A stretch of DNA of 64,000 nucleotides from Prosopocoilus inquinatus (lineage: Eukaryota > Arthropoda > Insecta > Coleoptera > Lucanidae), in assembly GCA_036172665.1 (NCBI GenBank), contig CM069877.1, positions 17,819,001 to 17,883,000 of the forward strand, written 5' to 3'. The position numbers and the translations under genes are program-made. The notes beneath the pieces were generated by a model. That model worked only from the letters and a program-made list of their open reading frames with translations, did not search any database and was not told where the DNA came from. Positions 25,793 through 45,546 of this stretch are shown here, piece after piece. Each line of letters begins with the position of its first letter. The first letter of the stretch is position 1.

Positions 25793-27073
25793 CATAGGCT
25801 GCTGGAAAAGTTTCTGGAAAAGGTATGGAAAAACGCATATGAAATTTGGTAAACGGTATTATTGTTTTTCGAAGTATTCGCCTTTGACGTCAATACACTT
25901 TTGCATACGCTCGAACCAATTCCTAAAGCACGTTTTCCATTCTAAAGATGGTACTTCAGAAACCAGTGTCCGGAATGTTTCAACCGCTGCTTCAGCCGAC
26001 GAAAATCGCTCACCACGCATTTTATTTCTGATATTTGGGAACAAAAAGAAATCATTAGGTGATAAATCAGGTGAATATGGACAATGAATCATTAATTCAA
26101 CATTTTTGTTGAACAAAAAATCAACTGTTTGACGGGCTGAGTGAGAGCTGGTGTTGTCATGATGGAGAATAATTCGTCGATTTCGATTGTTTCTTCTTAT
26201 TTGATCAATGACTTCCGGCAAACAAATTGTAGTATACTAATCAGCATTCACGGTTTTTCGCTCCTCTGAAGCCACGGTTGCTACATGTCCAGTTAAACCA
26301 AAGACACAAGCAATCATTTGCTTCGCAACACTGCGTCAACGGACAACTTTTGTTGGTTTTGGTTCATTTTGAAATACCTAAACGGTAGATTGTTGTTTAC
26401 TTTCTGGCTCGTACGAATAGATCCACGTTTCGTCACCAGTAACGATGTTATAAACTACATTTGAACGACCTCCATTGAATTTCTTGAGCATTTCTTCGCA
26501 TCATTTGACACGACCTTGCGCTTGCGCTTCTGTTAAATTGTGTGGGATCCAACGACTGCAAAGCTTTAGTACGTTCAAATAATCACGCAAAATCTGGTGT
26601 ATTGCTTTCATGTCAATGCGTAAGGATGCTTGAATCTCACGATATGTCATATGTCGATCTCGCTCAAGCATTTCACGCACAGCATCTACGTTAGTGGCAA
26701 GAACAGATGTTGATGGATGACCTTCACGAAATTCGTCACTGAGACAGCTGGAATTCGGCTAACCAATTATAAACACTGCTCTTTGATGGTGCTTCATCTC
26801 CAAAAGCCAAATGAAGCCGATCGAGGCATTGTTTCGGCGTTAGACCACATTTGAAATCGTAAAAAATCATGGCTCGAAAATTTTCACGCGAGATCTCCTT
26901 GTTTACACAAAATTACTTTTTCTCAAATGCTGTACAAACAAAACTAGTTCACTTGGATAGGAACTGTCAATAGAATTATAGGCGAAAAACGTCAAATTTT
27001 TCAAATGTGACAGTTGATAAACGCTAACAATTCTAGACCTACTAGATTCCAGAAAATTTTCCAGCAGCCCATG
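25793..27073 (-). mobile_element. mariner element, full length but inactive
   Basis: The inverted tips CATAGGCTGCTGGAAAAG and (from the right) CATGGGCTGCTGGAAAAT lie 1281 bp apart, the normal mariner length, with TA duplications at 25791-25792 and 27074-27075. The transposase runs on the - strand but is broken by stops and shifts. Confidence 0.9.
25859..26890 (-). pseudogene. mariner transposase, broken
   Basis: The N-terminal helix-turn-helix region is readable near 26880 (FYDFKCGLTPKQCLDRLHLA and FGDEAPSKSSVYNW). Stops then interrupt the middle, where the first catalytic Asp should be. The last 120 residues are open (26221-25859): ILHHDNTSSHSA holds the second catalytic Asp and YSPDLSPNDFFLFPN holds the third, giving the D34D spacing of mariners. 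The enzyme cuts and pastes the element at TA; this copy cannot be active. Confidence 0.9.
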
Positions 27074-29490: not shown

Positions 29491-29612
29491 TTGGGAGTGG
29501 GCCATGGTGTTATTTACAACCAGCGCCATCTATGAGCAGAAAGTTAAAACACACGCGAGAAAGTCGACAGCGCTATCTACGTTAATAAAATACAAAAAGA
29601 GACGGCACGGCG

Positions 29613-30792
29613 CACAGTGGGCGAAATCTAGGAATTAGCTGGACAAAAATGTAAAAAGGCCTTTATCGCAACTTTTTTTTGGGGGTTAAAATTGATGAAA
29701 ATCAATGGATAGTATATTCAGTTATATAATTCACTCAAAGTATGCCAGATCATCTGTTAAAGCGGTAATGGCCGAATGCGGGAATCTAAACAGTGCGTCA
29801 ATATACGTAGCTAAAACTTCTCCTTTCTCAATTAATAAGTAATTTTAACACAGGAAAAGTACATGTGCTATAGAATTATGATTTTGGTATAACAATTTTC
29901 GTTATAAACGGTTAATATTTGATTTAGACTGTTACAAAAAATTGTGTTTATGTCGGACTTTGAACGAATCATCATAACTTTTTTATGTTTGAAAGTGTCT
30001 TTAAAAAAATGGTAAGAAATGGTATTCCTGAAACTTTTTCCACTTATTCAGGAAGTAACAAGGTTTTGATTTCTTGCAGAAACATTTGCCTTTTTGCCCC
30101 ATTCTGAAAATTATAGCTGTCTAGATTTCGCAACATATTTTCTTATTTCTAAGAGTAATGTACTGTTTTATTTCAAAGCAGAGAAAATATTGTGAAATCG
30201 AGACGGATATAATTTTAAAATGACACAAAAAAAACAAAGAAATGCAAACAGAAGTGTATTATTCTGTTTGAAATCAGAAAAAATATTGTCCAATTTAGAT
30301 GGCTATAATTTAAAAAAATGGCACAAAAATGCAAATGTTTCTGCAAAAAATCAAAACTCTATTACTTCCTCAATAAGTGGAAAAAGTTTCAAGAATTCCA
30401 ATTTTTACTATTTTTTTGGACACTTTCAAACATGCAAAAGTTATGGTGATTCGTTCAAAGTTCGCCAAAAACACAATTTTATAACAGTAAATAATAAATA
30501 AAATACTAACTATTTATAATGAAAAATCATAATTTTCTAGCACATGCACTTTTCCTGTGTTTACTTATTAAGTGAACAAGGAGAAGTTTTAGCTACGTAT
30601 ATTGACGCGCTGTTTAAAATCCAGCGTTCGGCCATTACCGCTTTAACAGATGAAGTACGTTGTTTTCATGGCATACTTTGAGTTTATATAACAGAACATA
30701 CTGTCCATTGATTTTCATCAACATAAACAAAAAAAATGTTGAGGGCCATTTTATATTTTTGTCCAGTTAATTCCTTGATTTCGCCCACTGTG
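29613..30792. mobile_element. Transib-like element T1 with RSS-like ends
   Basis: The 1180-bp element has exact CACAGTG tips at both ends and a 5-bp GC-rich duplication, CGGCG (29608-29612 and 30793-30797). Reading inward from each end, CACAGTG is followed by a 23-bp spacer and then ACAAAAATG (left) or ACAAAAATA (right). This has the layout of a RAG 23-RSS (heptamer, 23-bp spacer, A-rich nonamer). Established knowledge: Transib transposons carry CACWRTG tips and make 5-bp GC-rich duplications, and are the source of RAG1. The arms are inverted over about 530 bp. No transposase is encoded. Confidence 0.8.
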
Positions 30793-31459
30793 CGGCGATC
30801 AGAATTACTTTTTACTAGAGTTCCTGCATACAGGGTGCTGCGTGTTTAAACGCAACATAGGAAATCCCTTATTCTTTTACAGCAAAATTCCATTTAGTTT
30901 TTTTTAAGTACTCTTCAAGATGAATCTATCTGTGAAGTTTGAGAATTTTCCATTCGCTCAGTTTCAAGATATTTAAAAAAGATCAGTAACGAACAGTGTT
31001 GTTAAAGATACATTTCTAATAGTATCTAGATACAGATGCAAATACTTTCACAAATATGTATCTAGATGCAGATACATATACTTTTTCCGGAAAATATCTA
31101 GATATAGATACAGATACAAAAAGAAGTATCTGCAGTTTATCAAGATATTTGCTGGTGTAAAATTCAATAACCTATGCAGTAGTGGAGGTACGGTATTATT
31201 TGCGATCCAAATCGACTTTTGTGAAAATTGACGAAGTTTTCGTATGAATATGTGAATAATGTACGCACTAAAATCTGTGATAATTTTCACAATTTTTTTC
31301 AGCAGTATGTCTTTTTAAATAGAAAATTTATCTTTGTAATTAAGTTGATCTATAAGCTGATATGTAATTACCTGGTTTTGTATGAAACCAAGTCAAGTCA
31401 ACATAAAATATAAAAATTTTGTGCAAATCGTTTTTAATTGCAGTGAGAACCTCGAGCAG

Positions 31460-31506
31460 CCTCTGGACAACTGTTTCAGCCCTGCTTGGGGCTTCTTCAG
31501 CAGAAA
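31460..31506 (-). ncRNA. Hammerhead ribozyme, family Q, intact core
   Basis: On the - strand: helix I TTTCTG with CAGAGG (four Watson-Crick pairs, two wobbles); core CTGAAGA (fits CUGANGA); helix II AGCCC / GGGCT with loop CAAGCA; core GAAA; helix III ACA / TGT with a two-base turn; then C, the predicted cleavage base after GTC. All core positions of a hammerhead are present. The very short helix III is as described for Penelope-like elements. Confidence 0.7.
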
Positions 31507-31896
31507 CGTAGCTGGACATTCGCACTGCAGACCAAAAACGACTTGCCCAATTTATTCGCAAATGCGATGTAAGAATGATGAACATATAAAATAGCGACAT
31601 CTTACTATCGCTTTTTGACCTAACATTGCAGTAGGATAGACAAATTGAAGCGGGATTTGCTCCTAATGAGTCCCCCATGCAAGGCGGCCATGCTTGCTGT
31701 CAAAGCATAATGAAAGATTTTAGAAAAATTTTGTGCAAATCGTTTTTGATTGCTTCAATTTGTCTATCCTACTGCAATGTTAGGTCAAAAAGCGATAGTA
31801 AGATGTCGCTATTTTATATGTTCATCATTCTTACATCGCATTTCCGAATAAATTGGGCAAGCCGTTTTTGGTCTGCTGTGCGAATGTCGAGCTACG

Positions 31897-31943
31897 TTTC
31901 TGCTGAAAAAGCCCCAAGCAGGGCTGAAACAGCTGTCCAGAGG
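31897..31943 (+). ncRNA. Hammerhead motif, family Q, with mutated core
   Basis: Same helices as the inverted copy (TTTCTG / CAGAGG, AGCCC / GGGCT, GAAA), but the core reads CTGAAAA: the conserved G (position 8 in hammerhead numbering) is A. Helix III is ACAG / CTGT with no loop. The G8 change is expected to abolish cleavage. Confidence 0.6.
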
Positions 31944-32605
31944 CTGCTCGAGGTTCTCACTGCAATCAAAAACGATTTGCACAAAATTTTTCTAAAATCT
32001 TTCATTATGCTTTGACAGCAAGCATGGCCGCCTTGCATGGGGGACTCATTAGGAGCAAATCCCGCTTCAATTTGTCTATCCTACTGCAATGTTAGGTCAA
32101 AAAGCGATAGTAAGATGTCGCTATTTTATATGTTCATAAAATATAAAGTTATCAACAGAAATGACTACTTCCGTATCAGACAAGTTAAATGCCAAATGAA
32201 TCTAGGATCCTTAGTTGCAACCTTGTTGTAGCTAAGAGAGCGTTCCCAGAATCAAGAAAAGTTGATAAAATCATTTTCCGTTTGATTTTCTCCTTTTGTC
32301 AATTATCTTTCCCAATTTTTAAAATAATTTTCAAGTTTCTGAACTATCAAATCGCATTTTAAATAGAACAGTCATTTGACAAACTGGAGAATATAATTAA
32401 CAAGAGGGGAAAATCAAAACAAAGAGACTGTAAAATCGGAGGTTGCCAAGATCTGCTGTTTTTATGGAAGTTCAAAATATATCTAAAATGTATCTTAGTA
32501 TCTCAAATGAATAAATACACTGTAATTGTATCTAGATAGTCAAAAAGTATTTAGATACTGTATCTAGATACTTGCATCTAGATACTTAACAACACTGGTA
32601 ACGAA

Positions 32606-37564: not shown

Positions 37565-38518
37565 CGACGCACAGTGGTCCAGAATGGAATTCTAGCATGA
37601 CAAAATGAAAAAAATTGAAACATTTGAATAAACATCAAAATAAAAAATATATTTTTATTAATGTTCTTCCATGTTTGTTTTATTTGTTTCGCAACCTTTT
37701 CTTTTATTTACGCTTATGTACCGCTGTCAAATCATGCATGAACACTTCAGGTATCAAACGTGACTGAAAATGTAATAAGTTAAACATAAGTCTGACAATA
37801 TTTTAGAAGGTTTTATTGGGTAAGTTTGGTGAGATCTTGTTACTTTACTCTTTCTTACATAATTCCATTTATGATCAATCGGATCTGAAGGTTTATTTAT
37901 ATATTTTTTCAATTCAAATAAAAGTATATTGAATATTTGCATTTTAAACTTTCAAAGACAAGGACTAAAAAAGAGATCAAATGAGATGTTTTTGCGAGTT
38001 ATGTAATTGTAATTAGTAGTTTATTTTAAAATAATTTTGTCCAACCAAGTGCTACTTTTTGCTACTTTGTAAGATTTCTTCAAAATTCGCTCTTGATTTG
38101 GCTCTGAATATGAGTAAATATGAGAATGTCTTAAGCAGCGTGTCCATGGATTGAGTTGACAAGAGGAAAGACATATTTTATAGAATTCTATTTGCCTAGA
38201 AATCTGAAATAAAAAGGAGACTGTTCCATTAAAAAAAAATGAGATACCGAATGTTTCGTAAGTATCGATCGTTCGGTATAATGCAAAAAGATATCTTAAT
38301 TTTGTTCACATTTTCATAAAGGCCAAAGTTCTAAAAATATCGTGTTAGATTTTCGTTCGTCTGTATTACCTCAGTAATCAGAAATTCATATTCAAACTGA
38401 CTGCATTTTTGCAAAATTCTTCAAGAAAAAAAAATATTTTACGAAAGTTATTCAATGAAATATCTTTAAACCGTTGTAATCAGCTCACTGTGGCGCATCC
38501 AAATAAGTAAAAATATAC

Positions 38519-38706
38519 AGGGTGTTCCATTAAAAAAAAAAAAGTTTTCACGAACCACCATTTTTCTGATCACTCTGTACAGTTCAAAATAATTTTACAA
38601 TATGTCGCGTATTGTCTAGTATAAAATTCTTTATAGATTTTTTTCCTAATTTTTTCCCATAAGCCTCATAGAAGAAATACGCATCGTTGGGCCACCCTGT
38701 ACAGGA
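38519..38706. mobile_element. Short CAGGGTG MITE inside T2
   Basis: CAGGGTGTTCCATTAAAAAA at the left and GTTGGGCCACCCTG at the right, with TA on both sides. The right tip matches family A, the left the internal palindrome of family A, so this is a deleted or rearranged derivative. A piece resembling the family A arm (TTGTAACTAATTTTAAATCA) follows at about 38740. Confidence 0.5.
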
Positions 38707-38763
38707 TATGCTATTGGCTGTGTCACACGAAACAATTCAATTGTAACTAATTTTAAATCATGT

Positions 38764-38950
38764 ACTAGGACCGCCAAAAAAATCTGAGACAACTCTCTAC
38801 ATGCATTTTTCACTTATTTTATTAGTTTGAATGCAGCTTTAAGCCATTTATCTTGTTATTTGGAGCTTGTTTTTATGGTAATGTAAAAACATGGCGTTAT
38901 ATTTACAATAGGACATACTGCATGTCCCAGATTTTTTTGGCGGGCATAGA
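38764..38950. mobile_element. Short MITE with GACCGCCAAAAAAATCTG tips
   Basis: GACCGCCAAAAAAATCTGAG near 38768 is mirrored by CCCAGATTTTTTTGGCGG near 38928. It splits what looks like a family A arm, so it inserted later. Confidence 0.6.
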
Positions 38951-39182
38951 ACCTATACCATGTAAGTAAAAATGAAAACAGAATTTAAAAATAAAAAGAC
39001 TCCGAACTATTAGATCACTTCTATTGACTACAATAAGACAAATATGAAAATCTTATTATTACCATTTTAGTGCGTTTTTACAAACTCTTTTCAACTTCTT
39101 TCTTTTTAATAGCAGTGCAGGGTTTCTGAGGATTTTTACCTAATTTTAGGGCGATTATGTTACTTAAACCTGAATTTTTCTA

Positions 39183-39942
39183 CATGGTGTTAATAAAAAA
39201 AACCTGGACAACGTTTGGCAGGTGACAGTAGAGATCAAAACAAGAAAAAAAATTTAATAAACACATGTCCATTACTCAATACAAGTGTCCACGTTATGTG
39301 TTCACTTTCTAGAATTTTTACTTTTACGTAAAATTCATGATAGATAAATTAAATAAATTTAATATATAATAATTTTTCGACGTAACGCCAGCGACCCCAC
39401 CACTTCCGGTGAAACTTATTTTTTCAAATGAAACATTTTACCACCTAATGAAAATTTCACGTGCTGTAAAAATGTTAAAAAAACAAAATGCAATCAAAGG
39501 AGTGGCTTCCTCGATTTATTTGTTCGCATTAGAACGAAAATAAACGATTTATAGCTTTGGAAAAAAAAACAAAAAAAAAGTTTCGTTGTCTTGAAAACTA
39601 AAAGTACTAAGTGATACATATTCGGACTCACAATGATCTGCAGATTTCAAATATGTAAAAATATACAGGCCGTTACATTTAAAATAAGAAAGTTGATGTC
39701 ATTTTCGGTGAAACCAGAAGTCGTACAGCGACTACGTCCGCCGTGCTACGTCGGAAAATTCAACTTTATATTTAATTCATCGATGCAGAATTTTACTTAA
39801 AAAATAAAATTTTTAGAAAAGTGAATACCATGCGTGGACAGCCTATAGAGAGTATCGAACATGGGTTTATTAGAATTGTTTTTTTGTCTTCATCTCTACT
39901 GTCACCTGCCAAACGTTGTACAGGTTTTTTATTAGCACCCTG
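39183..39942. mobile_element. Long inverted-repeat MITE, family F, copy 1
   Basis: The left tip CATGGTGTTAATAAAAAAAA, continuing ACAACGTTTGGCAGGTGACAG, is mirrored by CACCTGCCAAACGTTGTAC and ATTAGCACCCTG. Arms share TTCCGG, TTTAAAATAAGAAAGTTGAT and CGTTGTCTTGAAAACTAAAA-like modules with family B. Palindromy continues outside (GGGCGATTATGTTAC and GTAACATAATCGCTC), meaning it lies near the centre of another inverted repeat. A second copy lies at 49289-49944. Confidence 0.7.
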
Positions 39943-40265
39943 CAGAGAAATTTAGGTTTTTTGGAAGGTAACATAATCGCTCTAAAGTTAAGCAAAAATC
40001 CTTATAGAAGTAATTGTATTGTGATACTATCATACGATTTCTATAGAGAATGTAGTTAAAAAGATACTGTTTTGTTATTTTCATCATTTTGGAAACTTAG
40101 ATATAATAAATTAATTCTGTCGCGCTAAAATTCCATTCTGGACCACTGTGCGACGCTTACGTCGACAGTCAACATTGGGACGTTGTTCTTGCATATCGTA
40201 ATCGTAGTGCCAGTGGTGCTTAAGTTTAGCTTGATTCGTTTTTAAGCGTTAATTTATCTATTAAC

Positions 40266-43076: not shown

Positions 43077-45497
43077 TTATAACACATGTTTCAATGTTAC
43101 ATACAGTTTTGACGATATTCGACTACATAAGAGAGGAAAAACGTCATGTAAATCAGTATATGAAACAACAACTTTATCATCTGTATATTCAACTTCAAAG
43201 CTTTGAAAATGGTGATTGAAACAAACTGTATTCAATTTATTTAGCACAAAGAAAACTTTTTTGTCATCTTCAGTAATTATGTGTCCAATAATACCAAATC
43301 GTGGAATATCGTTTGCTTTTTCTACTAAAACCATCTGCGGTTTATATAAAATACCAAACATTTCAATCCAATTAGTTAGACATAAGTTTTCTCTTGGTGT
43401 ATCCAGAAAGAAAGACTCGTAAGTACAGGTATCGATAGGATTTAATTGACCTAAATTATTGATACTACTATCTTGTAAAGGTGTCACAAGTTCATAACAC
43501 AGTTTTAATTGAGCTTTGACAGACAACGTATGGATTATATTTTTAAATGATCCGGATATATTAGAAGTTAACTTTGACTGCCTATGTTTCTGCTCAAATC
43601 GCATACTCCAAAAATGTATTAAAGGTCCACATTTTTCAAGCACAAGTGGATAATGAACGAGATGGTGATGTTTCGGTTTGAGTGGTCCGCAAAGAGAAAT
43701 ATATAACTTGTGATGTTCTTCTATAAGAACTCTTAAGCGTATGGTTTCAGAGAACTGAAGTGAAGGACTTGTAATGATATCAATGATTTCCCTTAATTTT
43801 ATCCATAACTGCCAAAGCTCCAGATCTTGAGGAACTAAATCACCAATTACTAAGCCAAAATATCTGGACAAAAACAACATTTCTGATGCTGACATTTTTA
43901 AACCATTTTTTAAATTGGAAAGCACTACCTTCTGTGGTTTATTTCTTTTTTCTATTTCACCACAATTAAATGCACCAATACGATCATTAAAAGTGCTCAG
44001 AGAAAATAATCGATAGTCACAAATAAGTTTATATAATATAAAAGTCATGTCATAGACACATACACCTTCGAACATGTCATGCATAATGTCTACACTAACA
44101 TTGTTTGTTACATGAAAATCTTGTAATTCATGCCAAATACAAGGCTCCTTTACACCTGTTTGTGAAATGTGATGAGCTAAGTCAGATTCGTAATTTTCTT
44201 CTGTTCTTAGCAGAGTGTCATCGCTAACGCATAAAAATTGTGAATCAGCTTTATGTATTTTACAAAACCTACATCTGTAATTTGCAGAAAAACATTCTGT
44301 AAAACCCAGCACAGAATGGACACCCAAATTATCTCCCAAAATCAGGCCTAATTTGAAATATATTCTCTCATCTGAAATGCCATTATTCACAATAATGCCA
44401 TCAGTCTCTAAAAATTTTAATTCTTCAATAATTTTATAAAAGATTTTCTTGTTGCCAAATACTTTTTTATCACGAGAATGGAATAAAGCAAATAAATAAA
44501 TATTACTTAATTTTGAGAGTAAATGTTGAGGTAAACAAGGTATTGTGAAGTATACCGCCCCTAACTTATTGATGCCCGCATGTGAACCTAAACAATTCCC
44601 AACTTCGTAATCATCGTAGTAAATAAACAATGGCAATATAGTTTTCTCATTGGACATGAATTGTTTCCAAATATTGCCTTGTACAAAGTTGTAACATATT
44701 TTTTCAGTTTTTAAATTCACAATGCAGTTTTTAGTTTGATTTAAAATATCTGGTTTTTCCAGAATACATTGCAGTACTTTACGAATAGGTATAAATTTTC
44801 CTTTCACTTCCTTTGGTGCAAATGTCGTATCATTATTATGCGTTACGAAATGCATAGCATGGCTGATAACATAATCCTCAGGTAGTATAAATAATTTGGA
44901 ATTTTCGAAATATTTTATACGTTTGTATTCAGTGTCGAAATCATTAAAAGCAGTGCAACACATTTCAAACACATCTGTGAACGTTTTAATAACATCACCA
45001 TTGCAATTTAAAACTAATAACTGTGCAAGTACCATTTTTTGTAAATCTTTGAATACAGTGTGAAAAAGAATTTGAAAAGATTGTACAATATATTGTACAA
45101 AGCTTCGAGGAATCAACGAATTATTATACATTTCAGAAAATATATGTATTATAGAATTTTTTAACAGTTCTTCTATTTTATTAATGTTCACGGTTTCTTG
45201 TTCCTCTTCAAAATCAGAATTACTATGTAGCGTTTTATCTTCCAGTTTTTCAATTTCTAATGTATTTTCACATAAATCTGAATTAAAATTTTCTGTATGC
45301 ACTGTATTCAATATTGCATCTGTGTTATGAATCTTCAAATGCTTGATGAAACAATTACGATTGGTAAATTGGCGTTGGCAATTATTTTGAATGCAAACGT
45401 ACAAACTGTGGTGTTTCAAATTATGAGAAATCTTTAAGTGAAAAGTTAAAGCTTTGATAGAGAGTACTATCTTATAACATATGTAACATTGAAACAT
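43077..45497 (-). CDS. Transposase-like protein with two N-terminal C2H2 fingers (806 aa)
   Basis: An intact single-exon frame. I start it at the first in-frame ATG (45497); an in-frame TAA lies 15 codons upstream. Two C2H2 fingers open the protein (Cys4, Cys7, His20, His25; Cys35, Cys40, His53, His57). An acidic low-complexity stretch follows (about 70-105). The large C-terminal region has NCLGSHAGINKLGAVYF (about 301), GDNLGVHSVLGF (about 388), a Cys pair in YRCRFCKIHK (409, 412), DIMHDMFEGV (470-479), LKPKHHHLVHYP (606) and FWSMRFEQKHR (629-639). Conserved Asp, His and Glu in such motifs suggest a DDE-type nuclease of the kind found in large two-gene DNA transposons (CACTA/EnSpm-like); that assignment is inference. 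The gene lies only 49 bp after the stop of the SAM-domain gene, same strand, and is followed by the 75-bp array. No stop or shift interrupts 2.4 kb, which argues for recent activity or selection. Confidence 0.8.
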   Translation of the reverse strand: MFQCYICYKIVLSIKALTFHLKISHNLKHHSLYVCIQNNCQRQFTNRNCFIKHLKIHNTDAILNTVHTENFNSDLCENTLEIEKLEDKTLHSNSDFEEEQETVNINKIEELLKNSIIHIFSEMYNNSLIPRSFVQYIVQSFQILFHTVFKDLQKMVLAQLLVLNCNGDVIKTFTDVFEMCCTAFNDFDTEYKRIKYFENSKLFILPEDYVISHAMHFVTHNNDTTFAPKEVKGKFIPIRKVLQCILEKPDILNQTKNCIVNLKTEKICYNFVQGNIWKQFMSNEKTILPLFIYYDDYEVGNCLGSHAGINKLGAVYFTIPCLPQHLLSKLSNIYLFALFHSRDKKVFGNKKIFYKIIEELKFLETDGIIVNNGISDERIYFKLGLILGDNLGVHSVLGFTECFSANYRCRFCKIHKADSQFLCVSDDTLLRTEENYESDLAHHISQTGVKEPCIWHELQDFHVTNNVSVDIMHDMFEGVCVYDMTFILYKLICDYRLFSLSTFNDRIGAFNCGEIEKRNKPQKVVLSNLKNGLKMSASEMLFLSRYFGLVIGDLVPQDLELWQLWIKLREIIDIITSPSLQFSETIRLRVLIEEHHKLYISLCGPLKPKHHHLVHYPLVLEKCGPLIHFWSMRFEQKHRQSKLTSNISGSFKNIIHTLSVKAQLKLCYELVTPLQDSSINNLGQLNPIDTCTYESFFLDTPRENLCLTNWIEMFGILYKPQMVLVEKANDIPRFGIIGHIITEDDKKVFFVLNKLNTVCFNHHFQSFEVEYTDDKVVVSYTDLHDVFPLLCSRISSKLYVTLKHVL

Positions 45498-45546
45498 AGT
45501 GGCATATACAAAAATAAACTGCACAGACAATTACTCATGAAAATGA

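Follow-up and report, generated by a model that had tools for sequence, protein, structure and literature searches.

Element A, which occupies positions 29613–30792 (1180 bp) of the window, as we call the whole 64-kb stretch of DNA that was analysed, is in all probability (about 0.93) a palindromic, MITE-like, non-autonomous member of the Transib superfamily that was mobilised in trans, was inserted at a CGNCG-like site and goes back to one founder. Direct reading shows that the element is flanked on both sides by an exact CGGCG. At each end a perfect CACAGTG heptamer is followed, after a spacer of 23 bp, by a block that agrees with the RSS nonamer at 7 of 9 positions, the consensus used for scoring being CACAGTG / ACAAAAACC as given in PMC212687 and PMC8289069. 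The first-pass annotation had described this layout, including the perfect heptamers, the 7/9 nonamers and the 5-bp duplication, and every part of that description was confirmed.

Table 1. Features of elements A and B, in window coordinates.
Feature	Positions	Strand	Basis
Element A, left target duplication CGGCG	29608..29612	.	direct reading
Element A, left heptamer CACAGTG	29613..29619	+	direct reading
Element A, left 23-bp spacer GGCGAAATCTAGGAATTAGCTGG	29620..29642	+	direct reading
Element A, left nonamer-like ACAAAAATG, 7/9	29643..29651	+	direct reading, consensus scoring
Element A, left palindrome arm	29613..30148 (inner limit approximate)	+	
Element A, right palindrome arm	30271..30792 (inner limit approximate)	-	
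Element A, right nonamer-like ACAAAAATA, 7/9	30754..30762	-	direct reading, consensus scoring
Element A, right 23-bp spacer GGCGAAATCAAGGAATTAACTGG	30763..30785	-	direct reading
Element A, right heptamer CACAGTG	30786..30792	-	direct reading
Element A, right target duplication CGGCG	30793..30797	.	direct reading
Element B, left target duplication CGACG	37565..37569	.	
Element B, non-autonomous Transib-type, CACAGTG-23-ACAAAATGA / CACAGTG-23-ACAGAATTA	37570..40150	+	
Element B, right target duplication CGACG	40151..40155	.	

Element A forms a single imperfect palindrome, each arm being some 530 bp long, and its inner right arm holds a diverged second copy (30151–30233 / 30247–30329). A whole-element alignment to its own reverse complement gives 76% identity with gaps, and the majority consensus of seven full-length copies has a palindrome identity of 90.5%. 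An open-reading-frame check found no frame of at least 120 aa that overlaps the element, and a Transib frame is absent from it; its description as palindromic and non-autonomous held. A transcript of the element, if one is made, is predicted to fold into a long hairpin (−603 kcal/mol, a figure that at such a length stands without a shuffle control). In the window copy the tips agree between the arms at 36 of 39 positions and the rest of the arm at 362 of 408 ungapped positions; the difference is not significant (P = 0.79), so this copy gives us no ground to claim that the tips are under selection. Since both ends belong to one palindrome they are not two independent RSS matches, and the copies in the genome are the better evidence.

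The host is probably an insect, since insects supply most of the named relatives of an 817-aa frame in the window. Its genome, 173 contigs that total 650 Mb, gave 125 alignment rows with element A as query (106 first-look candidates, 40 of them scored). The pattern CACAGTGGGCGAAATCNAGGAATTA, the first 25 bases of the A end, occurs with at most two mismatches at 72 places, and the reversed pattern at none. A part of these places was fetched (20 + 11 + 11 loci), which with the window copy makes 43 loci, and 40 of the 43 carry A-like ends, 54 in total. Their consensus is CACAGTG-GGCGAAATCWAGGAATTAGCTGG-ACAAAAATG, also written CACAGTG GGCGAAATCAAGGAATTAGCTGG ACAAAAATG, where spacer position 10 is A in 59% of ends and T is the other common base. 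The ends were chosen by likeness to A (at least 30/39), so the conservation figures are inflated: the heptamer is perfect in 40/54 and imperfect in 14, and the nonamer reaches at least 7/9 in 41/54, stays lower in 13 and is exactly ACAAAAATG in 33. CGNCG is the commonest flank pattern, found beside 29 of the 54 ends, and by hand count 21 of the remaining 25 flanks are one base off it. Fourteen inverted pairs of A-type ends could be compared; their flanks are identical in five, agree at 4/5 positions in six and at 2–3/5 in three. A match of at least 4/5 is thus seen in 11/14 pairs; random pairs of 5-mers drawn from the window match this well in 2.5% of cases. Loci L113 and L114 lie about 20 kb apart, are possibly one duplicated copy and may not be independent. 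The first-pass annotation had proposed collecting copies and building a consensus of the ends, and had named copies without the nonamer or the duplication as evidence against its claim; the 23-bp spacing, the nonamer and the 5-bp duplication proved to be family-wide, the majority of copies keeping the latter two. Element A belongs to a real transposon family.

The seven full-length copies are 93–96% identical to their majority consensus (4–7% away from it) and 88–92% identical pairwise, so that the burst of element A was not recent. At spacer position 10 six of the seven copies carry T in the left arm and all seven carry A in the right arm, the exception being L100 with A on both sides. The same difference between left and right arm in most copies points to descent from a single, imperfectly palindromic founder. 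No description of this family was found in the literature at the level of titles and abstract openings; element A is a new non-autonomous Transib family, while the RSS resemblance of Transib ends is already published.

How often such ends arise by chance was estimated in the window. In 300 simulated sequences of 64 kb, built from the dinucleotide frequencies of the window, a perfect heptamer with a nonamer of at least 7/9 at +23 occurred 0.017 times per window. The window holds 62 inverted pairs of CACWRTG-type heptamers within 12 kb; identical 5-bp flanks occur in two of them, A and a second element, B (Table 1), versus 0.10 pairs expected from base composition. A motif-blind scan for identical 5-bp flanks 150–5000 bp apart, with the first four end bases equal, at least 17/20 inverted end identity and simple-letter ends removed, returned five pairs: A, B and three others, flanked by AT-rich 5-mers (TTAAA, TTTAA, TTTAA), that lie within longer inverted repeats or at their margins. 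A chance match was rejected as the source of the A ends on the simulation, the motif-blind scan, the scores of the window's 9-mers and the offset test reported below. Public contigs were also covered. A lone CACAGTGG-22-ACAAAAA string is present in 89 public viral contig stretches, one in each of the 80 listed, and a single string of this kind is uninformative alone; near-exact A and B end strings were absent from the viral contigs, and no Transib protein was confirmed in viral or bacterial/archaeal contigs.

The search for Transib transposases used as probe a Transib C-terminal motif, which matched HzTransib in PDB (6pqn, E 6e-26). Through the matched HzTransib piece 72 Transib relatives (of 80 candidates) were drawn from public proteins, the named ones among the 72 coming from moths, a beetle, an aphid, a barnacle and a protist. 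With these relatives no Transib transposase was found in the 64-kb window (best tblastn E 0.009, best profile E 0.67). In the host genome the beetle protein P0038 of Zophobas morio matched 72 rows at at least 70 places (784 candidates, 70 scored), with 37–63% identity; many rows have stops and some have none. DNA identity sorts thirty transposase loci into six families, of which F4 is represented by L143 alone, and with two families added later, F7 (L148) and F8 (L149/L150), the genome holds at least eight. Two further loci, which were read in the search for a partner of A, fall into F5 (L173) and F2 (L174).

A strict scan found inverted CAC..TG ends between like 5-bp flanks at 14 of the 30 loci (13 exact, one at 4/5), and further loci show single ends. 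The Transib-type assignment made at first pass is borne out by these abundant transposase loci, whose ends follow the same plan as those of A. Three locus pairs (L119/L120, L121/L122 and L128/L129) are probably assembly duplicates. The contig pairs C11/C13 and C6/C15 of assembly G000 carry identical or near-identical Transib or element-A matches, which suggests that the assembly includes duplicated haplotypes. A transposase tree was built with nine sequences of this genome, all of which have the catalytic D, D and E columns. On it F1, F4, F5 and F6 cluster with the proteins P0038 and P0062 (support 0.82) and F2 and F3 stand beside the HzTransib-like protein P0001 (support 0.84).

Family F7 (L148, L179–L188) has the ends CACTATG-23-CCAAAATGG / CCAAAATTA, identical over 39 bases in all six copies read. 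Each of the six has an exact 5-bp duplication (CATTC, CAACG, CAACA, GGATG, CAATG and CAACG), a target that differs from CGNCG, and the frames are of 719–732 aa, with one stop in two of six rows. The heptamer CACTATG is the one reported for amphioxus ProtoRAG (PMC8289069).

CAC..TG ends are near-universal among the Transib transposase families of this genome. Eleven of 15 representative ends start with CACAGTG, and the others read CACTATG (both ends of F7), CACAATG and CACACTG. Scored at +23 against ACAAAAACC, the two ends reach 7 and 6 in F1, 5 and 6 in F4, 5 and 5 in F7, 4 and 5 in F5, and 4 and 4 in both F2 and F3; the single end read in F6 scores 7, and F8 gives 0 and 4, the 0 belonging to a left end that came from a loose scan and is uncertain. 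Averaged over the eight families, the score peaks at +23 of 60 offsets (4.81 vs 2.59 elsewhere), and none of 20000 random-offset draws reached this mean; at +12 the mean is 2.38, with the uncertain F8 left end scoring 5 there. For F1, F4, F5 and F6 the best offset is again +23 (5.88, other offsets 2.64), and for F2, F3, F7 and F8 the +23 mean of 3.75 is barely over that of the next offset (3.5). One transposase clade (F1, F6 and less so F4) shows a clear RSS-like nonamer at +23, and elsewhere this block is weak; clade and nonamer do not correspond cleanly, because F5 groups with F1, F4 and F6 by sequence, yet has a weak nonamer. Column conservation over ten families, A and B included, is found at positions 24–26 and 29–37, which read TAG..GG and then ACAAAAT. 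This block starts in the region of the RSS spacer and is thus not simply a vertebrate-style nonamer; we read it as a putative inner binding block of Transib whose position overlaps that of the nonamer. The first-pass annotation had also called the match of A unusually close. The perfect heptamer and the 7/9 nonamer are real, but the claim that so close a match is exceptional is only partly supported, since some Transib ends with heptamers and nonamers identical to the RSS have been published and 7/9 is also reached by F1 (one end) and by F6.

An autonomous Transib with the same tips, which the first-pass annotation had expected, was not found. A Transib coding match was present at none of the 22 loci read around A-type ends (six end pairs of 0.75–4.8 kb, the rest 3.2–3.6 kb stretches beside one end), and these loci thus hold no autonomous element with the exact ends of A. 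The A ends agree with those of F1 and F4 at best at 29/39 and 28/39 positions. The mobilising enzyme would most likely belong to the F1/F4/F6 clade or be a relative that has since been lost. Supplied in trans, such a transposase would bind the heptamer and the inner TAG..GG-ACAAAAT block at both ends and would cut at the outer edge of CACAGTG by a hairpin-forming reaction, as reported for HzTransib and RAG (PMC6941560). Staggered insertion, with 5 bp between the cuts, into a CGNCG-like, GC-rich target would then produce the CGGCG duplication. We infer these binding contacts and this cutting chemistry, as well as the choice of enzyme. In the likeness of A to the vertebrate 23-RSS we see the shared descent, already published, of Transib transposase and RAG1 together with their ends, and no immune role.

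It seems improbable that the likeness to the RSS at +23 arose by chance in AT-rich DNA lying inward of a Transib heptamer. Such DNA is at hand, with 33% G+C and with 2% of the window's 9-mers scoring at least 6/9 and 0.3% at least 7/9 against the nonamer, and in half of the transposase families (F2, F3, F5 and F8), where the nonamers are weak, +23 is the second best offset. However, the best offset is exactly 23 both in the mean of the eight families and in that of F1, F4, F5 and F6, and ACAAAA stands at positions 31–36 in both A ends and in the left end of B (the right end of B has ACAGAA) despite spacers that agree between A and B at just 8–10 of 23 bases.

An origin of element A in the RAG-like (RAGL/ProtoRAG) lineage, with RAG1L plus RAG2L, instead of in Transib would share with it the 5-bp duplications and the CAC-type ends (PMC7204232, PMC8289069). 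The motif behind CAC differs: the protostome RAGL consensus given in PMC7204232, CACTWMCAAACK..., has AAA at positions 8–10, where A has GGC, and on this mismatch a RAGL origin was rejected. The inner block TR5 of ProtoRAG, GCCATCTTG, is described as unlike the RSS nonamer (PMC8289069) and, unlike that of A, is not A-rich; the identity of the genome's transposase rows to a Transib protein also speaks against this origin, which we hold to be very unlikely. Hardly any weight is left for a product of another CA..TG superfamily such as Chapaev, CACTA/EnSpm or Mirage, to which 5'-CA..TG-3' ends are mostly common according to PMC12730594. The duplications of this group are given there as 2 to 5 bp, hence length alone is not decisive, but the CGNCG-like, GC-rich target, the 23-bp heptamer/nonamer plan and the similar ends that Transib genes carry in this genome argue for Transib.

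As a Transib member, element A shares CAC..TG ends and 5-bp duplications with the described elements of the superfamily (HzTransib, Drosophila hopper and transib1–4, Anopheles Transib N1–N3). The Transib transposase is described as a RAG1-like DDE enzyme (PMC7204232, PMC8355894, PMC6941560). Compared with known Transibs, A is a near-complete palindrome, and the CGNCG-like target of its family differs from the CCANTGG reported for hopper and transib2 (PMC3276498) and the GCTCG reported for HzTransib (PMC1852546). Its nonamer-like block is stronger than that described for HzTransib in PMC8289069, which attributes to most Transib families, HzTransib for example, symmetric ends that resemble the nonamer slightly or not at all; for some Transib ends PMC6941560 and PMC8355894 report heptamers and nonamers that equal those of the RSS. 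The weak nonamers of F2 and F3 and the stronger ones of F1 and F6 agree with both remarks. From the vertebrate 23-RSS, which it resembles in heptamer, spacer length and nonamer, A differs in the absence of 12/23 asymmetry, both of its ends being of the 23 type, and the Transib conserved block differs in beginning within the spacer.

The range of end types in one genome is a more interesting product than the RSS match of element A. The genome adds a within-genome comparison of one palindromic non-autonomous family with at least eight transposase families. Several of the latter have open frames as well as intact 5-bp duplications, and the ends in this comparison, set in a common 23-bp register, range from RSS-like to nonamer-poor. 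With such natural enzyme/end pairs the ancestral status of the nonamer becomes testable. One tentative and rather doubtful idea is that the F1/F4/F6 clade, beside the Zophobas morio protein, may have kept or regained a true 23-RSS-type end with a nonamer-like block that is read by the transposase, and that the HzTransib-like clade (F2 and F3) may have lost it. If this were true, ends of the F1/F4/F6 type could be direct substrates of RAG, and the tree leading to RAG1 could show where nonamer-using Transibs parted from nonamer-free ones.

Element B has inverted ends of 40 bp with 87.5% identity, and its nonamers ACAAAATGA and ACAGAATTA score 6/9 and 5/9. It is commoner than A in the genome (853 first-look candidates, 40 scored), and the 39 scored rows besides the window copy cover about bases 1–636 of the 921-base query at 93–96%. 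In four B copies that were read, the left end agrees at 39/39 positions with the degenerate B-end consensus and the flanks are CGCCG, CGGCG, CGACG and CGCCC; the opposite ends of these four were not located. Three stop-free pieces of B gave no match in Pfam. The B ends agree with those of F1 at 32/39 positions, and the right end (120 bp) aligns weakly to F1 (about 67%, E 0.007), so that B, as far as its sequence goes, is best placed near F1. An inverted-repeat element with arms of about 230 bp that are 79% alike is nested in B at 39129–40002 and has relatives at 2.4–3.1 kb, 49.3–49.9 kb and 63.5–63.8 kb of the window.

Other mobile sequences were seen in the window. A mariner-like transposase remnant lies on the minus strand at 25859–26221 (DDE_3, E 1e-4, below the cut-off of Pfam), and 31409–32137 holds large, nearly perfect inverted repeats (243 bp at 97% and 176 bp at 100%). 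On the minus strand at 43077–45530 an open frame of 817 aa, which contains a weak C2H2 finger, has 173 relatives at E ≤ 0.001, the best of the 120 listed being 42% identical over 99% of the length and most of the named ones among the matches listed coming from insects; the product resembles that of a mobile element.
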